NCBI RefSeq assembly: GCF_900114765.1 | Contig: NZ_FOUD01000018.1 | Coordinates: 1-64,000 of the forward strand | Length of the DNA: 64,000 nucleotides | Direction of reading: 5' to 3' | From: Halopseudomonas pachastrellae | Lineage (GTDB): Bacteria > Pseudomonadota > Gammaproteobacteria > Pseudomonadales > Pseudomonadaceae | Shown here: piece by piece, positions 17,352 through 26,836 of the stretch | Numbering within the stretch: the stretch's first letter is position 1 | How the letters are laid out: every line of letters starts with the position of its first letter | Notes under the pieces: generated by a model | What the model was told of the DNA's origin: nothing | Databases searched by the model: none | Seen by the model: only the letters and a program-made list of their open reading frames with translations | Position numbers and translations under genes: made by a program

Positions 17352-17367
17352 TCCCCCATTAGGGGGG
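17352..17367 (+). promoter_or_regulatory. GC-rich palindrome upstream of the DUF1302-DUF1329 operon, candidate regulator box
   Basis: TCCCCCATTAGGGGGG contains perfect arms CCCCC/GGGGG around ATTA, centred about 127 bp upstream of the first ATG. A nearly identical sequence (TCCCCCAACAGGGGGG) lies upstream of the hydrolase-PQQ dehydrogenase operon at 26821-26836. G-rich boxes are known targets of MalT, the prototype of the LAL regulators. The LAL gene between the two operons is therefore the likely reader, by inference. Confidence 0.6.
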
Positions 17368-17486
17368 GATAAACCACCCAGTCATCCGCTTAGAGTCGAT
17401 CACAGCGATGTTTGATGGACGGCCAGCGCCTGCTGTCAGCCCGCGAGGTTCCTCAATAACAACAAGCGCTCGACGCGAGGACAGAC

Positions 17487-19286
17487 ATGAAAAGCATAAA
17501 AACAAAAACCAACGTGCAAAGCAGCCTCAAGCCCATGGTCGTCGCCATCGCCATGGCCGCCGCCCTGCCCGCCCACGCCGTACGGTTTGATATTGGCGAG
17601 GTCGAGGGGCAATTCGACTCCAGCATTTCAATAGGCTCAAGCTGGGCTACTGCCAGCCCGGACAAAGACTTCATCTGGGCAAACAGCGGCGGGAACGCTA
17701 ACGCGGCCAACACAGACGACAATAGACTCAACTTCGACAAGGGTGACGCCTTCTCGACCATCTTCAAGGGTATCCATGACCTCTCGCTGCAATACGGCAG
17801 CACTGGGGTTTTCCTGCGCGGCAAGTATTGGTACGACTTTGAGCTCAAAGACGGCCACCAAGACCTGTACGACATCAGCGATGACAACCGAAAAACCGCC
17901 GCGAAAGGGTCGGGTGTCCAGCTGCTTGATGCCTTCCTATATCACAACTACTCAATTGGCGACATGCCGGGCTCAGTGCGCATCGGCAAGCAGGTAGTGA
18001 GCTGGGGTGAAAGCACCTTTATCCAGAACGGCATCAACAGCATCAACCCGATTGACGTAGCTGCTTTCCGCCGTCCAGGTGCCGAAATCAAGGAAGGCCT
18101 GATTCCGGTCAACATGCTCTATCTGTCCCAGAGTCTGACAGACAATCTGGGTATGGAAGCCTTCTACCAGCTGGAGTGGGATCAAACCGTTATCGACAAC
18201 TGCGGCACCTTCTTCTCACCGAGCGACACCCTGGCTGACGGCTGCTATCAGGTCGGCGTTGGTGGCAGTCAAAACGGTGCCAACGGAGACCCGACGTTCG
18301 TCTACGTGCCACGCGCTGGAGATGTGGATGCCAAAGACGAGGGTCAGTTTGGCGTCTCCTTTCGTTACTACGCCGAGCAACTGCATCAGACCGAATTCGG
18401 TCTGTATTTCATGAACATTCACAGTCGTCTACCAACCTACAACACCATTTCAGGTGGCGGTCAGACGGTGATCGGAGCAGAACCGAATTCTCAGACCGGG
18501 CAAGTTGATGTGGCTCTATTGGGCAACTACTTTCTCGCCTATCCCGAGGACATTCGCATCTATGGCATGAGCTTCCAGACCAACCTGGGCGGCACCGCCT
18601 TGTCCGGTGAGGTCAGCTACCGCCCTAACCAGCCAGTACAGATCAGCTCAAACGACCTGACCGGCGCCGCGCTGGGCAACAGCGCCACACCACTCACCAC
18701 CAGCGGTCATGTACCAGGCGCGGTTCTTGGGGTACCGATTCCGGCCGGCACTGTCATTCAAGGGTACAAGCGCCTGCCAGTTACCCAGGCTCAGGTGACC
18801 GCTATCCGTATCTTCGACAACGTCTGGGGTGCGCGCAGCATGACGGTCATTGGTGAGGTCGGGTACAACCACGTCAGTGGTATCAAGAAAGGTATTAACG
18901 AGCTTCGCTACGGACGCGACTCGCTCTACGGCTCCGGACCACTTGCGGTGCCCGGTGTGTGCGAGGGCCTGAACGCTGCCGATCCGTCCGAGTGTACCTA
19001 TGACGGCTTCTACACCAGCAGCTCATGGGGTTACCGCGCACTGGTCAACATGGAGTACGACGGCTTCGCAGGCATTGCACTCAAACCCAGCTTCGCGTTC
19101 TCCCACGACGTAGATGGTACCGGGCCGAATTTCGTCGAAGGTTCGATGGCTGCCAGTGTCGGCCTGACCGGCGTGTACAACAACAAGTACAACGCCAGCA
19201 TCAACTACACCAACTTCTTCGGTGGCGATTACAACCCCAACACCGACCGTGACTTCGTCGCCCTCAGCGTCGGCGTTAACTTCTAA
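17487..19286 (+). CDS. DUF1302 family outer-membrane protein
   Basis: This protein of 599 residues has a signal peptide (cleavage after LPAHA near residue 33) and ends in GVNF with a terminal Phe, the usual signature of an outer-membrane beta-barrel. The body shows the DUF1302 pattern: RFDIGEVEGQFDSSISIGSS at the mature N-terminus, KQVVSWGESTFIQNGINSIN and a long series of alternating strands. DUF1302 proteins are repeatedly found with DUF1329 partners in clusters for steroid, hydrocarbon or alcohol breakdown. An outer-membrane uptake or exposure role has been proposed, not shown. It is followed 18 bases later by the DUF1329 gene. A candidate operator lies upstream at 17352. Confidence 0.9.
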   Translation: MKSIKTKTNVQSSLKPMVVAIAMAAALPAHAVRFDIGEVEGQFDSSISIGSSWATASPDKDFIWANSGGNANAANTDDNRLNFDKGDAFSTIFKGIHDLSLQYGSTGVFLRGKYWYDFELKDGHQDLYDISDDNRKTAAKGSGVQLLDAFLYHNYSIGDMPGSVRIGKQVVSWGESTFIQNGINSINPIDVAAFRRPGAEIKEGLIPVNMLYLSQSLTDNLGMEAFYQLEWDQTVIDNCGTFFSPSDTLADGCYQVGVGGSQNGANGDPTFVYVPRAGDVDAKDEGQFGVSFRYYAEQLHQTEFGLYFMNIHSRLPTYNTISGGGQTVIGAEPNSQTGQVDVALLGNYFLAYPEDIRIYGMSFQTNLGGTALSGEVSYRPNQPVQISSNDLTGAALGNSATPLTTSGHVPGAVLGVPIPAGTVIQGYKRLPVTQAQVTAIRIFDNVWGARSMTVIGEVGYNHVSGIKKGINELRYGRDSLYGSGPLAVPGVCEGLNAADPSECTYDGFYTSSSWGYRALVNMEYDGFAGIALKPSFAFSHDVDGTGPNFVEGSMAASVGLTGVYNNKYNASINYTNFFGGDYNPNTDRDFVALSVGVNF

Positions 19287-19304
19287 TAAGAAACGGAGCA
19301 AGCG

Positions 19305-20678
19305 ATGAAAATAATGAAAAAACGATCCCTGCACCTGCTTGGCGGTGCCCTGCTCAGCACCCTGGCGCTGTCGGTCAGCGCTGCCGTCTCCCCCGAGGAG
19401 GCCGCCAAACTACAAACCACCCTGACGCCCATGGGCGCAGAGCGCGCTGGCAACGCCAGCGGCACCATTCCGGAATGGACCGGTGGCATGGCTACCGACG
19501 CTGCAGCCGTTGACGGCGATGGCTTCTTTGCCGACCCCTTTGCCGGCGAGCAGCCGCTGTACACCGTGACAGCGGCCAATATGGATCAGTACGCCGAGCT
19601 GCTGACCGCAGGGCAGAAGGCCATGATGCAGCGCTATCCGGACACCTACAAACTGCGTGTATTCCAGAGCAACCGCAGCGCCACCGTACCCCAGGAGGTG
19701 TTCGATGCCGTAGCGCGCAACGCGGTCAACACCCGCCTGGCCGAAGGGGGCAACGGCCTGGAGAATTTTGATACCGCCTACCCCTTCCCCATCCCGCAGA
19801 GCGGCGTTGAAGTTATCTGGAACCATATCACCCGCTACCGCGGCGGCAGCTTCGAGCGAGTGATTGCCCAGGCCACACCGCAGGCCAACGGCTCCAACAC
19901 CATGGTCATCCTGCAGGACGCCTTCAGCTTTGCCACCGCGCTGACCGATTACGGCCCGAAGATTTCCGACAACCTGATGTTCTATTTCACCCAGCGTATC
20001 CTGTCACCATCGCGTCTGGCCGGTGACGTGCTGCTGGTGCACGAGAACATCAACCAGTTCAAGGAGCCACGTGCCGCCTGGATGTATAACGCGGGCCAGC
20101 GCCGCGTACGCCGCGCCCCGCAGGTTGCCTATGACGGCCCGGCGTTCAGTGCCGACGGCACCCGCGTGTCGGATAACTACGATTTGTACAACGGCTCACC
20201 TGACCGCTACGACTGGAAACTGGTCGGCAAACGCGAGCTGCTGATCCCGTATAACAACTTCGCCATCGCCTCGCGTGAGCTGAAGTACGATGACATCATC
20301 CAGCAGGGCCACATCAATCAGGATCTGGTGCGCTACGAAGTGCATCGCGTGTGGGAGGTGGAAGCCACGCTCAAGGAAGGTCAGCGGCATGTTTATGCCA
20401 AGCGCCACTTCTTTATCGATGAAGACAACTGGCAAGCCGGCGAAATTGACCACTACGATGGCCGTGGCGGCCTGTGGCGGGTGGCCGAGGCGATTGCCCT
20501 TCAGCGCTTTGACCTCAAGATCCCGGGCTACGCACTGGAAACCCTGTACGACCTGCAGAACGGCCGCTACATGGCGCTGGGCATGACCAACGAAGAACGC
20601 AAGAACTACGACTTCAGCTTTGAAGCCTCCTCAGCGGACTTTACCCCGAACGCGCTGCGCGCCGCCGGTATCCGCTAA
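19305..20678 (+). CDS. DUF1329 family periplasmic protein (LolA-like fold)
   Basis: This 457-residue protein has an N-terminal signal peptide (residues 1 to about 26, ending SVSAAVS) and the DUF1329 core. Typical stretches are ERAGNASGTIPEWTGGM near the start, WNHITRYRGGSFER, RVRRAPQVAYDGP and AKRHFFIDEDNWQAGEIDHY. The fold resembles LolA/LolB lipoprotein carriers. Members are paired with DUF1302 barrels and probably handle a hydrophobic compound between the membranes; this is inference. The ATG at 19305 follows CGGAG. It is the second and last gene of the operon, with a terminator at 20687. Confidence 0.9.
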   Translation: MKIMKKRSLHLLGGALLSTLALSVSAAVSPEEAAKLQTTLTPMGAERAGNASGTIPEWTGGMATDAAAVDGDGFFADPFAGEQPLYTVTAANMDQYAELLTAGQKAMMQRYPDTYKLRVFQSNRSATVPQEVFDAVARNAVNTRLAEGGNGLENFDTAYPFPIPQSGVEVIWNHITRYRGGSFERVIAQATPQANGSNTMVILQDAFSFATALTDYGPKISDNLMFYFTQRILSPSRLAGDVLLVHENINQFKEPRAAWMYNAGQRRVRRAPQVAYDGPAFSADGTRVSDNYDLYNGSPDRYDWKLVGKRELLIPYNNFAIASRELKYDDIIQQGHINQDLVRYEVHRVWEVEATLKEGQRHVYAKRHFFIDEDNWQAGEIDHYDGRGGLWRVAEAIALQRFDLKIPGYALETLYDLQNGRYMALGMTNEERKNYDFSFEASSADFTPNALRAAGIR

Positions 20679-20686
20679 CCCCCTGC

Positions 20687-20738
20687 GCTCCCCCTGCCGT
20701 TTCCGCTGCTCCGGGCGGCACGGGGGAGCCTTCTTTCT
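20687..20738 (+). terminator. Terminator of the DUF1302-DUF1329 operon
   Basis: GCTCCCCCTGCCG at 20687-20699 pairs with CGGCACGGGGGAGC at 20716-20729 with one bulged base. A pyrimidine run CTTCTTTCT follows. It begins 8 bases after the DUF1329 stop. Confidence 0.65.
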
Positions 20739-20739
20739 A

Positions 20740-20906
20740 GCGGCAAGCTGCAAGCTTCAAGCGGCAAGCCGATCTCCGCCACTCCCCCGCCCTGCTTTTG
20801 GTCTTGGCTTTTGGTCTTGAATTTTGGTCTTGGCTTTTGCTTTTCGCTTGAAGCTTGCGGCTTGCGGCTTGCGGCTTGAAGCTCGCGGCTTGCGGCCGCA
20901 AGCCGC
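20740..20906. repeat. Intergenic repeat block with mirrored GCTTGCGG units and a 22-bp palindrome
   Basis: The left arm (20740-20770) carries GGCAAGC/GCAAGCTTC units. The right arm (20846-20906) carries the complementary GCTTGCGG/GCTTGAAGC units several times. Between them TTTTGGTCTTG occurs three times at 13-bp spacing (20796, 20809, 20822). The block ends in a perfect 22-bp palindrome, GCGGCTTGCGG then CCGCAAGCCGC (20885-20906), which touches the stop codon of the LuxR-type gene. Both converging genes end here. The block resembles the REP-like and simple repeats common between Pseudomonas genes, and the palindrome may help terminate the regulator transcript. Confidence 0.7.
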
Positions 20907-23611
20907 TACGCCTGCTGCAACATCACCGCGGCCTGTGCACGGTTATCGACCTTGAGCTTGGCGAAGATGCTTTTCATATGCGATTTGATGGTCTCGGGAG
21001 TTACGCTCAGGTCGCGGGCAATCTGCTTGTTCGACTTGCCCTCCGCCACCAGCTGCACAACCTGGCGCTCCTTGACCGTGAGCGCCAGCAGCGCCTCACT
21101 GCAGTGCTCGCCCTGTGTCGCAGCATCAATGCCCAGCAGGTTGGCGGCCCGCTGCTGCAGCGTCGGCGGGCACAAACGCGCCAGCAGCGCGCAGGTATCC
21201 TGGGTTGGCAGGTCGGTCAGCAGGCTGGTAGCGCCGCTGCGCTCCAGCAAATCCAGCACTGACGAGAGCAACGTAAGCGCCGCGCTGGCGCCTTGTTCGC
21301 GGCTGAGCAGCAAGCCGGTGACGGCTCCCAGCTCAAGGTAATGAAGCCAGATGCCCGACGCTTTCAGGCGCTCCAGCAGCGTGGACGCCTGCTCCAGCAG
21401 ATCCGGCTCGCAGGTGTCCTCATCCAGCGCCAACCAGAGGCGCGCGAGCAGCGCAAAGTACTCGCGGTCGACCCACTGATCCGGCCATTCCAGGCTGGCG
21501 AGTTGCTGCAACAAGTTGCAGCACACCTGAGCCTCGCGCGGCTTGCGCTCCAACAGGTGCAAACGCACCCGCTCAAGCAGCGCACGCGCCTGCAGGCGCG
21601 GCCAATCCCGCGCCAGCGCAAGCGACTCCAGATCATCCAGCAGGCGCCGGGCCTGAGCAAAACGTCCCTGCTGCGCCAGCAGGCGCACCTGTGCGGTGTA
21701 GGCCAGCGCCGTGCATTCGATAAAGCTGCCCGTTTTGATGTAGGGCAGGCACTCCTGCAACAGGTTTTCTGCCTCGGCATAATCACCAAGCAGGTAATGC
21801 CCAAACGCGCCCAGGCCTTTAGGTAACGCCGTCAAAACCGGGTTAGGCCGGCGCAAGTCAGCAGCGCGCTGGTTATCCGCCTGCTCCAGCAGCTCATCCA
21901 GCGCTGCGATTCCCTGCACGATACGGCCCTGATACATCTCGGCCAGGCCATACAGTGACTGGCGATAGCATTCATGCAGGAAGTAACCGCGATTGCCCTG
22001 ACTACGGCGCTGGGTGGGCGGCAAGGCGTACAGCTGATCCCACTCGCACGCGCGCATGTGCGCGCCACAAATTACATTGAGCAAAACGTGCGCCGCCCAC
22101 TGGGTGCAACAGCCTGACTCCACGCACTTGCGGGCCAGCGGCGCCGCCAGGGCATAGCGATCATCCAGCGCCCAGAGCATGGCCTTGATGGCCTGCACTT
22201 CCCAATAGATAGCGCTGGACTCTTCGCCAGCGCCCTGCTGCTCGATTTCCGCCTCCAGCTCCCGGGTCAGCCGCATTGCTGGCCCGTGCTCCAGCGCAAG
22301 GCCCATAGCCCAGGCGCGGGTGACTTTGAGCGGCAGCGGGCTGTCGCTCGCCTGCATCTGCCAGCGCTTTTCCAGCACAACCAGGGTGCTGAAATCACCC
22401 TGTTCGATGAGTGTGGTGGCGCAATCCTGAATCCATTCACGCAGCTGTGCGACATCACCACTGTCCATGCCCAGCCTGATGGCATCAAACCAGAGTTGTC
22501 GCTCGGCAAACCAGCACGCGGCCTGCAGCATCAGCTCGCGTGCCGCCGCCTCGTCATGTCGCAGGCAGGCAGTGCGCAAATGCTCACGGAACAGCGGATG
22601 CAGACTGAACCAAGTATCGTGATCATCCAGCACATTGATGAACAGCTGGCGTCGGCGCATGAGCAGCAGCAACTCATCGGCCTGCGCTTCGCCGAACAGC
22701 ACCTGCAGCAAGCCGGCGCTGAACTTGTCGAGCACGCCAACCGCACACAGACAGCGCGCCAAGCGCTCAGGCAACTGGGCCAGAATGTCATCGAACAGGT
22801 GGGTGATGCTGCGTGGCAAATGGCGCCCGGTGCCCTGCGCGGGGGTCAGCAGATAGGCCCGCAGGGCCGCGATCCAGCCGTCTGATGCCTGTTGGATGAT
22901 ACAGATATCGCCGCCAAACTCCGGCTGAACACCGCCCTTGCGAAACAGGGCTCGGGTTTCCTCCAGCTCAAAGCGCAGCATGGCGCTGCCGATCTCCAGG
23001 CGGTCGTCTGCATACAGGTGCTCGACAATCGCCTCCGGCAGATCCTTGCGCCCCACCAGCACGAGGTGCACGTGCTCAGGCGCGCGCTGCACAAATACGC
23101 GCAGCGCCTCCACCAGCACCGCGTCGTCTATGCAGTGGTAGTCATCCAGGAACAGGGTCAATGGCACCGGCTGCCTGGCAAGCTCATCAATCAGCAGACA
23201 GCTGAGCGCTTCGGCGCTGAAAAAACCGAGCTCGGCACCCAGATCAAGGCAGCGCCGTCCCACCTCCGGCAAGACTTTATTGATTGCCGCGCAGATGTAG
23301 TACAGCAGCCGCTGGGCGCTGTCATCCTCGGCGTCCAGCGACAGCCAGGCGACAGTCTGCCCCAACGCACTCAGGCGCTCTGCCCAGATGGTTGCGAGGG
23401 TTGTTTTGCCAAATCCGGGGGGCGCCTCCAGCACCGCGAGGCGACGCTCCAGCAACTGGTCTGCGTAGTGTTCAAGGCGGGGCCGGGGCAGAATGCCTCG
23501 ACCACGGCGTGGGGGGGATATCTTGGTGGCCAACAGCAAAGGCAGTTCGTTCCCCCAGTTCTGCCCGGGGGCGGATTGCGGCGCAATCCAGGCTACGCGA
23601 TTCCTGTTCAT
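20906..23611 (-). CDS. LuxR-family transcriptional regulator of the MalT / LAL type
   Basis: This large regulator of 901 residues has an N-terminal STAND/AAA-type NTPase, with Walker A EAPPGFGKTTL at residues 62-72 and Walker B LTLFLDDYH near residue 150. A long helical TPR-like middle region follows, then a C-terminal LuxR helix-turn-helix (TVKERQVVQLVAEGKSNKQI to about residue 890). This is the MalT/AlkS architecture, in which an inducer and ATP drive activator assembly. It lies between the DUF1302-DUF1329 operon and the PQQ dehydrogenase operon, which share a palindrome upstream, so it is the probable activator of both. No inducer can be predicted. A 7-bp stem hairpin sits in its leader 24 bases before the ATG. 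Confidence 0.92.
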   Translation of the reverse strand: MNRNRVAWIAPQSAPGQNWGNELPLLLATKISPPRRGRGILPRPRLEHYADQLLERRLAVLEAPPGFGKTTLATIWAERLSALGQTVAWLSLDAEDDSAQRLLYYICAAINKVLPEVGRRCLDLGAELGFFSAEALSCLLIDELARQPVPLTLFLDDYHCIDDAVLVEALRVFVQRAPEHVHLVLVGRKDLPEAIVEHLYADDRLEIGSAMLRFELEETRALFRKGGVQPEFGGDICIIQQASDGWIAALRAYLLTPAQGTGRHLPRSITHLFDDILAQLPERLARCLCAVGVLDKFSAGLLQVLFGEAQADELLLLMRRRQLFINVLDDHDTWFSLHPLFREHLRTACLRHDEAAARELMLQAACWFAERQLWFDAIRLGMDSGDVAQLREWIQDCATTLIEQGDFSTLVVLEKRWQMQASDSPLPLKVTRAWAMGLALEHGPAMRLTRELEAEIEQQGAGEESSAIYWEVQAIKAMLWALDDRYALAAPLARKCVESGCCTQWAAHVLLNVICGAHMRACEWDQLYALPPTQRRSQGNRGYFLHECYRQSLYGLAEMYQGRIVQGIAALDELLEQADNQRAADLRRPNPVLTALPKGLGAFGHYLLGDYAEAENLLQECLPYIKTGSFIECTALAYTAQVRLLAQQGRFAQARRLLDDLESLALARDWPRLQARALLERVRLHLLERKPREAQVCCNLLQQLASLEWPDQWVDREYFALLARLWLALDEDTCEPDLLEQASTLLERLKASGIWLHYLELGAVTGLLLSREQGASAALTLLSSVLDLLERSGATSLLTDLPTQDTCALLARLCPPTLQQRAANLLGIDAATQGEHCSEALLALTVKERQVVQLVAEGKSNKQIARDLSVTPETIKSHMKSIFAKLKVDNRAQAAVMLQQA

Positions 23612-23634
23612 GAAGTCAGTCCATGCCGAGCACG

Positions 23635-23656
23635 GGCTGCCTGAGGCAGCCTTTTT
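23635..23656 (+). terminator. Hairpin with T-run in the leader of the LAL regulator gene
   Basis: GGCTGCC-TGA-GGCAGCC followed by TTTTT reads as a terminator on the plus strand, where no gene leads into it. On the minus strand it forms a hairpin 24 bases upstream of the regulator's ATG. It could stop antisense transcription or shape the leader of the regulator mRNA. Confidence 0.45.
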
Positions 23657-23824
23657 ATTGTTATTCGCACCAACAACCCTAGCAGGGGATTGGCAAAGCG
23701 CCTAGCAGGAACACCGGGCAATCCGGGGGGTGACCTGCCAGCACGGTCACCCCATCATACGAACGCCCTTGTTTAGAGTAAATACTCAATTAGCGCAACC
23801 GGTCACGGTCTGACCACCGGCAGC

Positions 23825-25909
23825 CTATTGGGCCTGCTCCTTCTGCGTGTCCGCCCAGCTCTCGTATTCGCGCTGCATGATGTAGAGCTTGATCTGCTGA
23901 GCCTGCTCGGCTGAAAGGCTGTCAGCAAAGGAGGCCATGCCTTTGCCACGGAAGGCGCCCTGCAAAACAATGGCCTCCCAGGCGTCGCGCACCGCATCAC
24001 TGGAATAGCGCAGATCAGGAATGGTGCCACCGCCGACCGCACCCACACCATGACAGACCGTGCAGTAAATGCCGTAATTCAGCTCGCCCTGCTCAATGTC
24101 GCTGGCGGCCGCGACCACCGGCTGCGGCACCCGGTCAGGCGTCTGCAGCGGCGCAGGCGTGGAAAGCTGCGCCTTGCCATCGAGCTTGAACACCAGCATG
24201 CGGCTAACGTTGCGCGTGCCTGTGGCCACTGCCGCATCGCCGCCAAACAGCGCCGCCGCACCGCCCCACCCTGCCATCAAGGCCACATATTGCTGACCAT
24301 TGTGCTGATAGGTCATGGGCGCAGCGATGACCCCGGTCTGGGTCGGGAACTGCCAGAGCAGCTCGCCCTGATCCGCGGTATAGGCCTCCAGCTGACCGGC
24401 AGAGGTGCCTTGAAACACCAGGTTGCCGGCTGTCACCAGGGTGCCGCCGTTCCAGTGATTGGGCCGTTCCACACGCCAGGCTGGCGCCTGCTTTTCAGGG
24501 TCCCAGGCGATCAGCGCGCCGGTGGCATACTCGCGCGGCAACGAACGGTTTTCCAGGCCCGACCCGGTATTGAAGGCGTTGCGTACGACAAAGTTGCCAC
24601 CCTCGTTGGCGTAGGTCGCGGGGATTTCCTGATACGGCAGGTAAACCAGCCCGGTCAGCGGGCTATAGGACATCGAGTGCCAGTTGTGCGCACCAAACGG
24701 GCTTGGCCAGATAAGCGCAGGCTCATTTTCATAGCGCGCATTGGCGGCCTCAACCGGGCGCCCGGTCGCCATGTCGATACGCTCGGCCCAGGTCACCTTG
24801 CCGAACTTTTCGGCCGACAGCAGCTCGCCTGTGGCGCGATCAAGCACATAGAAAAAGCCGTTCTTGGGGGCCTGCATGATGACCTGACGGGGTTTGCCAT
24901 CGATCTCCAGCTCTGCCAGGGTCAACTGCTGCGTGGCGGTGTAGTCCCAGCTGTCCCCGGGGGTAGTCTGGTAGTGCCAGACCAGCTCTCCGGTTTTCGG
25001 TCGCAGCGCCAGAATCGACGACAGATACAGGTTGTCGCCGCCGCCCGGGCTGCGCACTTCGCGGTTCCACGGCGAGCCATTGCCGGTACCGACGTACAAC
25101 AGATTCAGCTCGGCGTCATAGGCCATGCTGTCCCATGCGGTGCCGCCCCCGCCCAGGTCCCAGCGCGTCTGGTCACTCCAGGTCTTGAGCGCGGTCTCCA
25201 GAGCCGGGCTATCCTGCGGACCATCGGCCGGATTCGCCGGCACGGTGTAGAAGCGCCAGCGCAACTCCCCCGTCGCCGCGTCGTAGGCAGAAAAGTACCC
25301 TCGCACGCCGAACTCGGCGCCGCCGTTGCCAATCAGTACCAGATCCTTAAGTACCCGGGGCGCGCCAGTAATGGTGTAAGGCTTGCTGTCATCGGTGGTC
25401 TGCTGGGTCCACAGCGGCTTGCCGGTTTTGGCGTCCAGCGCGATCAGGCGGCCATCCAGCGTGCCGACATAGACCTTGCCTTGCCAGAGCGCGACACCGC
25501 GGTTAACCGCATCGCAACAGGCCGAACGCCCCTTCGCCTTGTCTACGCCCGGGTCAAAGCTCCAGAGAATCTCGCCACTGTCGGCGTCCACCGCCATCAC
25601 CCGGCTCCATGACAGCGAGGTATAGAGCACGCCCTCGTGATACAGGGGCGTGGCCTCCAGCCCCCGGGTGTTGTCCAGGTCGATTGACCAGGCCAGGCCC
25701 AGTTGCTCGACATTCTCGGTGGTGATCTGGTTCAGCGGGCTGAAGCGCTGTTGGGCCCAGGTACGATCGTAGCTGAGCCATTGGCTACCGTCGGTTTCGC
25801 TGGCCAGCATGGCTGCGGTATCCACTGGCGCGGCTTGCACGGCGCCAGCAAGGGCAAACAGGGGAAGGATCAGACTATTGCGCAGGGCGCGGGTTGTCGG
25901 GTGTGTCAT
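23825..25909 (-). CDS. PQQ-dependent alcohol dehydrogenase with C-terminal cytochrome c (quinohaemoprotein)
   Basis: This 694-residue periplasmic enzyme has a signal peptide (cleaved near AVQAA, residue 26), an eight-bladed PQQ propeller and a C-terminal cytochrome c domain. Visible features are the adjacent-cysteine pair CC in GRSACCDAVNRG and the catalytic Asp in GDSWDYTATQQ. The haem site is CTVCH near residue 605, with a probable axial Met in GKGMASF. That is the layout of type II quinohaemoprotein alcohol dehydrogenases, which oxidise alcohols to aldehydes and pass electrons down the respiratory chain. The substrate is unknown. It follows the alpha/beta hydrolase gene by 53 bases on the same strand, probably as one operon. 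No PQQ synthesis genes are in the window. Confidence 0.95.
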   Translation of the reverse strand: MTHPTTRALRNSLILPLFALAGAVQAAPVDTAAMLASETDGSQWLSYDRTWAQQRFSPLNQITTENVEQLGLAWSIDLDNTRGLEATPLYHEGVLYTSLSWSRVMAVDADSGEILWSFDPGVDKAKGRSACCDAVNRGVALWQGKVYVGTLDGRLIALDAKTGKPLWTQQTTDDSKPYTITGAPRVLKDLVLIGNGGAEFGVRGYFSAYDAATGELRWRFYTVPANPADGPQDSPALETALKTWSDQTRWDLGGGGTAWDSMAYDAELNLLYVGTGNGSPWNREVRSPGGGDNLYLSSILALRPKTGELVWHYQTTPGDSWDYTATQQLTLAELEIDGKPRQVIMQAPKNGFFYVLDRATGELLSAEKFGKVTWAERIDMATGRPVEAANARYENEPALIWPSPFGAHNWHSMSYSPLTGLVYLPYQEIPATYANEGGNFVVRNAFNTGSGLENRSLPREYATGALIAWDPEKQAPAWRVERPNHWNGGTLVTAGNLVFQGTSAGQLEAYTADQGELLWQFPTQTGVIAAPMTYQHNGQQYVALMAGWGGAAALFGGDAAVATGTRNVSRMLVFKLDGKAQLSTPAPLQTPDRVPQPVVAAASDIEQGELNYGIYCTVCHGVGAVGGGTIPDLRYSSDAVRDAWEAIVLQGAFRGKGMASFADSLSAEQAQQIKLYIMQREYESWADTQKEQAQ

Positions 25910-25962
25910 GGGCTACTCGTCTGTGATTGTTTTTATTGTGCAGACCTGATGGCATGCAGTGA

Positions 25963-26757
25963 TCAGGTCGTTTTGCCGACAAAACGGCGAATGGCTTCGG
26001 CCACCTGGCCGGGTTGTTCCAGGGCAACCGAGTGTCCTGCGCCAGCAACCACCTGGCAGTCGCCCTGGCCGCTGTACTCGATAATCTGCTGTGACTGGGC
26101 AACGCTGTAGGCATGGTCCTGCTCGCCCGCCAACACCAGCAATGGCACCCGCAGGCCGGCAAGCTCCGGCAACACCGAGCGCCGATGAACGACACCGCGC
26201 GCCGCCTCGCCAATACCGGGCCCCAGCTCGCGCATGCGTGCCCGCCAGCGAGCACAGAGCGCCGCCTGCGATGGGCTACGTAAGGTGTCGTCACCAAACA
26301 TGATGAACATCAGGGTGTCGATCTGATCGGCTGCGCCGTCGCGGGCCAACTGCTCAACCAGCGGTTCGAATTCCGCCAGCTGCCGTTCCAGATCGGCGCT
26401 GCTGCCCATCACGATGCAGCCGGCCAGTCTCTGCGGATAACGTGCCGCCAGCCGCAAGGCAACAAAGCCCCCCATGGAATTGCCGGCGAAGTAACAGGGC
26501 GCGAGCTCCAGCGCGTCGATCAGGGCAAGTGCATCCTCGGTCAGGGTGTCCATGTCCAGATTGCCGGCGCAGCTGCTCAGCCCCTGCCCTCGGTGGTCGT
26601 AGACCAGCATCTCGAAGTCCTGGTGCAGCTGTTCGATCAGCGGCTCAAACATCCGCCAGTCAAAGAACAGAGAATGGCTCAGCACCAGAACCGGCTTGCC
26701 GGGCTGAGGGTAACGCTCGAAATGCAGGCGGACGTCGTTCACCATCAGGTACGCCAT
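25963..26757 (-). CDS. Alpha/beta hydrolase (3-oxoadipate enol-lactonase-like)
   Basis: This cytoplasmic-looking alpha/beta hydrolase has 264 residues and no signal peptide. The nucleophile elbow GNSMGG (near residue 93), the acid in LAGEQDHAY and the His in GAGHSVALEQP give a complete triad. Overall layout is closest to PcaD-like enol-lactonases and related esterases, but the substrate cannot be read from the sequence. It is the first gene of the operon with the PQQ dehydrogenase. A candidate operator lies about 70 bp upstream. Together they suggest ester or lactone cleavage coupled to alcohol oxidation; that link is inference. Confidence 0.85.
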   Translation of the reverse strand: MAYLMVNDVRLHFERYPQPGKPVLVLSHSLFFDWRMFEPLIEQLHQDFEMLVYDHRGQGLSSCAGNLDMDTLTEDALALIDALELAPCYFAGNSMGGFVALRLAARYPQRLAGCIVMGSSADLERQLAEFEPLVEQLARDGAADQIDTLMFIMFGDDTLRSPSQAALCARWRARMRELGPGIGEAARGVVHRRSVLPELAGLRVPLLVLAGEQDHAYSVAQSQQIIEYSGQGDCQVVAGAGHSVALEQPGQVAEAIRRFVGKTT

Positions 26758-26820
26758 GGGCGCATGCTCCGGTCGGCTAATCAGACCCTGATGCTAGAAG
26801 ACGTCACCCGAGAGGATTCA

Positions 26821-26836
26821 CCCCCCTGTTGGGGGA
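26821..26836 (-). promoter_or_regulatory. GC-rich palindrome upstream of the hydrolase-PQQ dehydrogenase operon
   Basis: In gene orientation the site reads TCCCCCAACAGGGGGG, centred about 71 bp upstream of the hydrolase ATG. It matches the site at 17352 in 14 of 16 positions, including both arms and the flanking A residues of the spacer. It is a candidate binding site for the LAL regulator encoded between the two operons. Confidence 0.6.

Follow-up and report, generated by a model that had tools for sequence, protein, structure and literature searches.

LAL regulators (large ATP-binding regulators of the LuxR family) form a large, little-studied family whose prototype, MalT of Escherichia coli, recognizes asymmetric, G-rich repeats known as MalT boxes. 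Here, we describe a LAL gene in a 64,000-nucleotide stretch of Halopseudomonas pachastrellae DNA (contig NZ_FOUD01000018.1, positions 1 to 64,000; the whole stretch is referred to as the window), where it sits between an operon of DUF1302 and DUF1329 genes and an operon encoding an alpha/beta hydrolase and a pyrroloquinoline quinone (PQQ)-dependent dehydrogenase, with a near-identical palindrome upstream of each operon. Judged from sequence, the two palindromes are very probably operators of the adjacent LAL regulator, which would activate both operons together as one catabolic unit.

Several described systems resemble this locus in part. The STAND ATPase region of MalT is shared with the LAL regulator described here; MalT boxes, however, are asymmetric, whereas the sites at this locus form a symmetric 7-2-7 inverted repeat, TCCCCCA-NN-AGGGGGG. 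A likeness to G-rich MalT boxes, proposed in the sequence-only reading of the window, is unsupported because of this symmetry, and the site is closer to NarL- or AlkS-type operators. NarL heptamers are likewise arranged 7-2-7, and response regulators of the NarL/VraR type possess a GerE domain similar to that of the LAL regulator, but the letters they recognize differ. AlkS of Pseudomonas putida GPo1 and Alcanivorax is, like the regulator proposed here, a LAL/MalT-type activator of a hydrophobic-substrate pathway (alkane catabolism) with an inverted-repeat operator, a likeness of layout. In GPo1, the operator is a 20-bp inverted repeat upstream of two promoters, according to the available part of PMC8784404, and LAL activators with inverted-repeat operators are in that sense already known. 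The targets of AlkS are nevertheless alkane monooxygenase genes and its own promoter, PalkS2, in contrast to the DUF1302–DUF1329 and quinohemoprotein alcohol dehydrogenase genes at this locus, and, unlike AlkS, the LAL genes of the genus have no palindrome upstream and possess a different conserved element instead.

The target genes also have described counterparts. PQQ-dependent alcohol oxidation is common to this locus, to ADH-IIB of P. putida HK5 and to the ped/exa regulon, but no LAL is among the ped regulators named in the available part of PMC12997753, which are AgmR/PedR1 and PedS2-PedR2. P. putida reportedly requires its DUF1302–DUF1329 pair, PP_0765/PP_0766, to use Tween 20 (PMC10866462), and growth of Castellaniella on monoterpenes was reduced by an insertion in ameB, the DUF1329 member of the AmeAB pair (PMC6394551); the available parts of these two sources name no LAL control or operator for either pair. 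A description of this particular regulator, operator or regulon was not found among the papers listed in searches of the open-licence literature of PubMed Central, as judged by titles and the openings of abstracts.

The two palindromes and their conservation in the genus

Predicted operator 1 lies at 17352–17367 on the forward strand (TCCCCCATTAGGGGGG), upstream of DUF1302–DUF1329, and predicted operator 2 lies at 26821–26836 on the reverse strand (TCCCCCAACAGGGGGG), upstream of the hydrolase and dehydrogenase genes. As the sequence-only reading had it, the two 16-mers agree in 14 of 16 bases in gene orientation, and their centers are approximately 127 bp from the ATG at 17487 (forward strand) and 71 bp from the ATG at 26757 (reverse strand). 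Its further claim, that no other such 16-mer occurs in the window, holds for the entire genome: the two sites are the only exact matches to TCCCCCANNAGGGGGG in 3,934,694 bases, each preceding the lead gene of one of the operons that flank the LAL gene. A first-order Markov model of the window predicts 0.0005 exact matches in 64 kb and 0.028 in 3.93 Mb. A single further CCCCC-N4-GGGGG occurs in the genome, on contig C19. Degenerate copies represent background only, since 14 sites at two or fewer mismatches compare with 13 for the reversed control pattern (the loci were examined by tblastn with the window's ten query proteins); in the window itself, six copies at three or fewer mismatches compare with 7.2 expected. 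Likewise, a search for the composite site (at one spacing, two or fewer mismatches) gave 14 matches versus 13 for its reversed control, which lends no support to a larger regulon, and the regulon in this genome, as far as sequence can tell, looks local and limited to the two operons.

Conservation of the sites follows that of the regulator. An orthologue of the LAL regulator was found in 16 of 37 genomes of the genus (44–100% identity, E < 1e-200), and the same 16 genomes possess orthologues of DUF1302 (at least 65% identity) and of the dehydrogenase (at least 71%). A pair of sites at one or fewer mismatches, one upstream of each operon, was present in all 16 LAL-bearing genomes and in none of the other 21 (Fisher's exact test, 8e-11, with related genomes treated as independent). 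Moreover, alignment of the promoters of the orthologous clusters showed the site to be kept in 16/16 for both operons, and, scanned across the whole genome and the genus, the motif was not frequent in unrelated promoters. Four additional single matches occur in three LAL-bearing genomes (two in G001, the others in G020 and G026), and any match at this threshold was seen in six of the 21 LAL-less genomes (G005, G023, G027, G031, G035 and G036); G027 has two copies approximately 220 bp apart, with G replacing the first conserved A. Outside the genus, the 16-mer at one or fewer mismatches was found in 22 of 59 genomes, mostly without known context, so the 16-mer alone is non-specific at that threshold and becomes specific only together with its spacing to the promoter (below).

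The surroundings of the sites vary. In four loci (L044, L046, L050 and L056), the DUF1285 gene that adjoins site 2 in the window lies 3.3–3.8 kb from the hydrolase gene, yet the site remains beside the hydrolase gene, and in four loci (L050, L051, L055 and L056) the other site remains beside DUF1302 though the locus has no HerA match. In half of the 16 genomes, a hydrolase match adjoins the dehydrogenase and the site precedes the dehydrogenase match by 906–949 bp; the remaining eight have no hydrolase match in the locus, and there that distance is 87–199 bp. Judged by its position, the site belongs to the downstream operon, also where the outer neighbors change.

Promoter geometry and distant LAL regulators

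Each site is followed by a −10-like hexamer: TAGAGT at 17391–17396 (forward strand), 23 nt after operator 1 and conserved in position, and TAGCAT at 26791–26796 (reverse strand), 24 nt after operator 2. Across the 32 promoters of the 16 genomes, TANNNT starts 23 nt after the 16-mer in 24 and 24 nt after it in eight, and the other offsets between 10 and 34 yielded no such hexamer in any promoter. Information content is 2.0 bits in both promoter sets for the first A and for the runs of C and G in the site, and the second A has 2.0 bits in one set and 1.3 in the other; a few bases beside the site reach 1.7 bits, and most other positions are below 1. If TANNNT is the −10 element, the palindrome is centered near −43.5 or −44.5 and all 32 promoters have the class II arrangement, in which the operator keeps a constant position around −42, beside the −35 region. 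From such a position, the LAL regulator would contact RNA polymerase as a class II activator.

Promoters of paralogues lack the site. CCCCC-N4-GGGGG at one or fewer mismatches was absent from the 400 bp upstream of 14 DUF1302 paralogues (50–53% identity; the top match from each of 14 LAL-less genomes, out of 21 in the genus) and from the 1300 bp upstream of 14 PQQ dehydrogenase paralogues (36–49% identity), the best match at all 28 controls having two to four mismatches. A general rule for DUF1302 promoters, a 6-4-6 palindrome plus TANNNT, was rejected: it applied to six of 54 upstream regions of paralogues (the 14 control loci and 40 hand-picked stretches, a subset of DUF1302 paralogues), versus 7.7 in mononucleotide shuffles. 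As a separate observation, another palindrome, TCACCC-N4-GGGTGA, occurs upstream of DUF1302 paralogues in three genomes of the genus (L097, L098 and L104), without TANNNT at a spacing of 22–24, and is possibly the site of another regulator.

LAL regulators of approximately 40% identity occur in Pseudomonas delhiensis, Pseudomonas citronellolis, Pseudomonas schmalbachii and Stutzerimonas chloritidismutans. The loci of these four species (L052, L053, L057 and L054) contain six exact CCCCC-N4-GGGGG sites, all of which are followed by TAGNNT at the spacing seen in the genus. By direction, the target is DUF1302 in L054 and DUF1329 in L052 and L057, where the site lies between divergent DUF1302 and DUF1329 genes. 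In L053 and L057, the target is the gene divergent from the LAL gene (an acyl-CoA dehydrogenase gene in L057); the −10-like hexamer of the palindrome found between the LAL and divergent genes in these other genera faces the divergent gene. Neighboring genes in L054 and L057 encode an acyl-CoA dehydrogenase, an AMP-ligase, a DUF5938 protein and two short-chain dehydrogenases/reductases (SDRs). A variant with a 5-nt center lies between the LAL gene and its divergent gene in L054 (the same locus as L157) and in genome G188 (L156), with TAGTAT 23 nt after the last G, so that the C run and the −10 are as far apart as at the other sites. Of four very distant LAL matches (L058–L061), one locus, L058, has one palindrome and the others have none.

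Some of these genomes hold composite sites beyond the operons so far named. One of the sites of P. delhiensis L052 (6136–6179 with the −10 spacing) precedes the gene of a second LAL-like GerE protein, which is 829 aa in length. As side observations in other LAL-bearing genomes of the Pseudomonadaceae, a composite site precedes a 52% relative of this second protein (L264:30–73, G218) and another precedes a DUF1254–DUF1214 gene (L266:1501–1544, G203). With the extra sites of L052, L264 and L266, the regulon of these genomes appears more extensive, and the second regulator may be part of it.

The association was also seen at the family level. LAL matches at E 1e-100 or better were sought in 298 genomes and the exact composite (palindrome, spacing and TAGNNT) in 398, a set taken from handle numbers to include the 298. 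The regulator was found in 21 of the 298 and the composite in 21 of the 398. Among the 298, both were present in 20 genomes and neither in 276; one had the regulator alone (G188, with the 5-nt-center variant) and one the composite alone (G044, between a LysM gene and a DprA gene). The composite occurred in none of the other 100 genomes, the LAL search having covered the 298. A reversed composite used as control was absent from LAL-bearing genomes and had many matches in some genomes of genus g14; these matches number up to 26 per strand (e.g., in G137 and G144) and are probably a dispersed repeat.

The recognition helix is conserved as well. Its core, ETIKSHMK, is present in 16/16 orthologues and in five distinct distant LAL regulators (L052–L054, L057 and L156; L153–L155 and L157 are second copies of the L052–L054/L057 loci and were counted once). 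In one case, a 38% paralogue in G026 (L158), the helix has changed to ETVKSYMK and the site is degraded.

Taken together, the site pair in 16/16 versus 0/21 genomes, the fixed −10 geometry in 32/32 promoters, the retention of site and geometry beside LAL regulators of approximately 40% identity and the absence of the site, at one or fewer mismatches, from all 28 paralogue controls strongly support the proposal of the sequence-only reading that a single LAL activator serves both operons.

Competing explanations and a proposed mechanism

A number of points weigh against this assignment. Within the genus, the 16 genomes that have the regulator are precisely those that have both targets, and the binding protein therefore cannot be identified from co-occurrence alone. 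Moreover, the second LAL-like GerE protein of P. delhiensis could also bind the site, and the intergenic site of L052 and L057 faces DUF1329, not DUF1302. The −10 assignment is pattern-based, no −35 element is evident in these promoters, and activation, as opposed to repression, would follow from the position of the site and the protein family.

The alternative that best survives is that the palindromes are operators of a different regulator encoded elsewhere, with the LAL regulator a mere neighbor. The exact co-occurrence within the genus is just as expected under this explanation, and the second LAL-like protein, whose own gene is preceded by a site in one distant cluster, offers a candidate of the kind. 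We consider it unlikely, however: the site persists beside LAL regulators of approximately 40% identity in other genera, where the surrounding target genes partly differ, the helix change and the decay of the site coincide in L158 (one case), and the composite occurs without the regulator in only one of 277 LAL-less genomes of the family (genome overlap taken from handle numbers).

Far less probable still is a role of the sites as transcription terminators or RNA hairpins belonging to the genes upstream (DUF1285 for site 2). CCCCC-N4-GGGGG is able to form a short hairpin, and site 2 is only 35 bp past the DUF1285 stop codon, but neither site is followed by a T-run or is among the listed terminators, the spacing to the downstream TANNNT is fixed, and site 2 stays beside the hydrolase gene in the four loci where DUF1285 is 3.3–3.8 kb away. 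This explanation was rejected, as the site tracks the downstream operon and not DUF1285. Finally, chance similarity of two GC-rich intergenic stretches, to which the 62% GC content of the window and the background level of degenerate copies might lend some color, can be practically dismissed in view of two exact matches at two operon starts versus the 0.028 expected per genome and, decisively, of their retention in 16/16 genomes despite mostly diverged flanks.

If the LAL regulator does recognize the palindromes, a dimer of its C-terminal GerE domains would bind TCCCCCA-NN-AGGGGGG, and from this site, next to the −35 region, it would contact RNA polymerase in the position of a class II activator. 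By analogy with MalT and AlkS, the STAND ATPase and sensor region would bind inducer and ATP before activation. The activated regulator would then turn on DUF1302–DUF1329, which would carry a hydrophobic substrate across the outer membrane and periplasm, along with the hydrolase and the periplasmic quinohemoprotein alcohol dehydrogenase. The substrate is probably a hydrophobic alcohol or ester, given the links of DUF1302–DUF1329 to Tween 20 and monoterpenes and the presence of a quinohemoprotein alcohol dehydrogenase. Neither the DUF1302 nor the DUF1329 family has an assigned function, and an operator shared with an alcohol dehydrogenase leads to the hypothesis that they import such a compound; moreover, the promoter could be used to find the inducer. 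The operator is unusually clean, and a LAL operator with known spacing in several genera would provide a handle on this family.

Genes at the locus and the upstream region of the LAL gene

Operon 1 comprises genes for a 599-aa DUF1302 protein (PF06980; 17487–19286, forward strand), a candidate outer-membrane beta-barrel, and a 457-aa DUF1329 protein (PF07044; 19305–20678, forward strand), a LolA-like periplasmic protein. The LAL gene (20906–23611, reverse strand) is located between both operons, downstream of the dehydrogenase gene. Its product of 901 aa has the makeup of the LAL family, namely a length of approximately 900 aa, an N-terminal MalT-like STAND ATPase with a P-loop and a C-terminal GerE helix-turn-helix: residues 26–410 align with the MalT structure 8bob (E 7e-36), including the GKTT P-loop, and GerE (PF00196) is found at residues 843–897 (E 6e-19). 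A receiver domain is not among its Pfam matches, and by the NCBIfam MalT equivalog it is not a MalT orthologue (265.4 bits versus a cut-off of 537). Its best relatives include that of Pseudomonas abyssi MT5, with 92% identity.

In operon 2, the alpha/beta hydrolase gene (25963–26757, reverse strand) comes first and is followed by that of the quinohemoprotein alcohol dehydrogenase (PQQ and cytochrome c; 23825–25909, reverse strand). The dehydrogenase contains PF01011 (PQQ propeller) and PF13442 (cytochrome c) and, by scoring above the TIGR03075 cut-off (643 versus 480 bits), qualifies as a type II quinohemoprotein alcohol dehydrogenase. The closest solved chain is 1kv9 (1053 bits), which we take to be ADH-IIB of P. 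putida HK5.

Autoregulation of the LAL gene by the palindrome found no support in the genus, the best matches upstream of 15 orthologues having two to five mismatches (the 16th is at a contig end). Instead, the LAL promoter region at 23754–23787 (reverse strand) possesses an operator-like element, GAGTATTTACTCTAA (23773–23787), that overlaps a promoter-like pair, TTTACT-17-TATGAT. As GAGTAWTTACTCTAA, the element is found with zero or one mismatch in 15/15 orthologues, the 16th being cut by the contig end; in that genome, another contig has a copy beside the dehydrogenase end. The only other match at one or fewer mismatches in the genome of the window is intergenic (L200:1499–1520), with a TetR gene (PF13972; contig C29) on one side and a divergent aldehyde dehydrogenase gene on the other. 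Among 35 loci with the element, TetR and aldehyde dehydrogenase genes were found together in this genome (L200 and L204, which are one place), G034, G028 and G018, and an aldehyde dehydrogenase gene without a TetR match in seven loci; a further 11 have LAL and/or PQQ dehydrogenase genes beside the element, and the remaining 12 have no gene of these kinds. At two mismatches, the reversed control is equally frequent in some genomes.

From this shared 15-bp element, a TetR-type repressor possibly controls both the LAL gene and the aldehyde dehydrogenase gene, in a cascade from TetR to LAL. A two-tier switch for the use of hydrophobic alcohols is conceivable, and we offer it tentatively, at somewhat under even confidence. 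The TetR protein, encoded divergently from the aldehyde dehydrogenase gene, would repress the LAL gene; once this is relieved, the LAL regulator would activate import by DUF1302–DUF1329 and periplasmic alcohol oxidation through a rigid operator-to-−10 geometry. Across the Pseudomonadaceae, the operator, the spacing and the link to DUF1302/DUF1329 would be kept and the catabolic enzymes exchanged (the quinohemoprotein dehydrogenase of this locus being replaced elsewhere by an acyl-CoA dehydrogenase–ligase–SDR operon), with DUF1302–DUF1329 as the constant import core.

Two further features were observed near the start of the LAL gene. An inverted repeat, GGGGTGACC-9-GGTCACCCC, lies at 23727–23753 (reverse strand), between the dehydrogenase and LAL genes; of the upstream regions compared, just two, that of the window and that of its closest relative (L138), have the arms intact. 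Finally, a terminator-like hairpin on the forward strand (23634–23652) occurs just upstream of the LAL start, with similar hairpins in L138 and L142.

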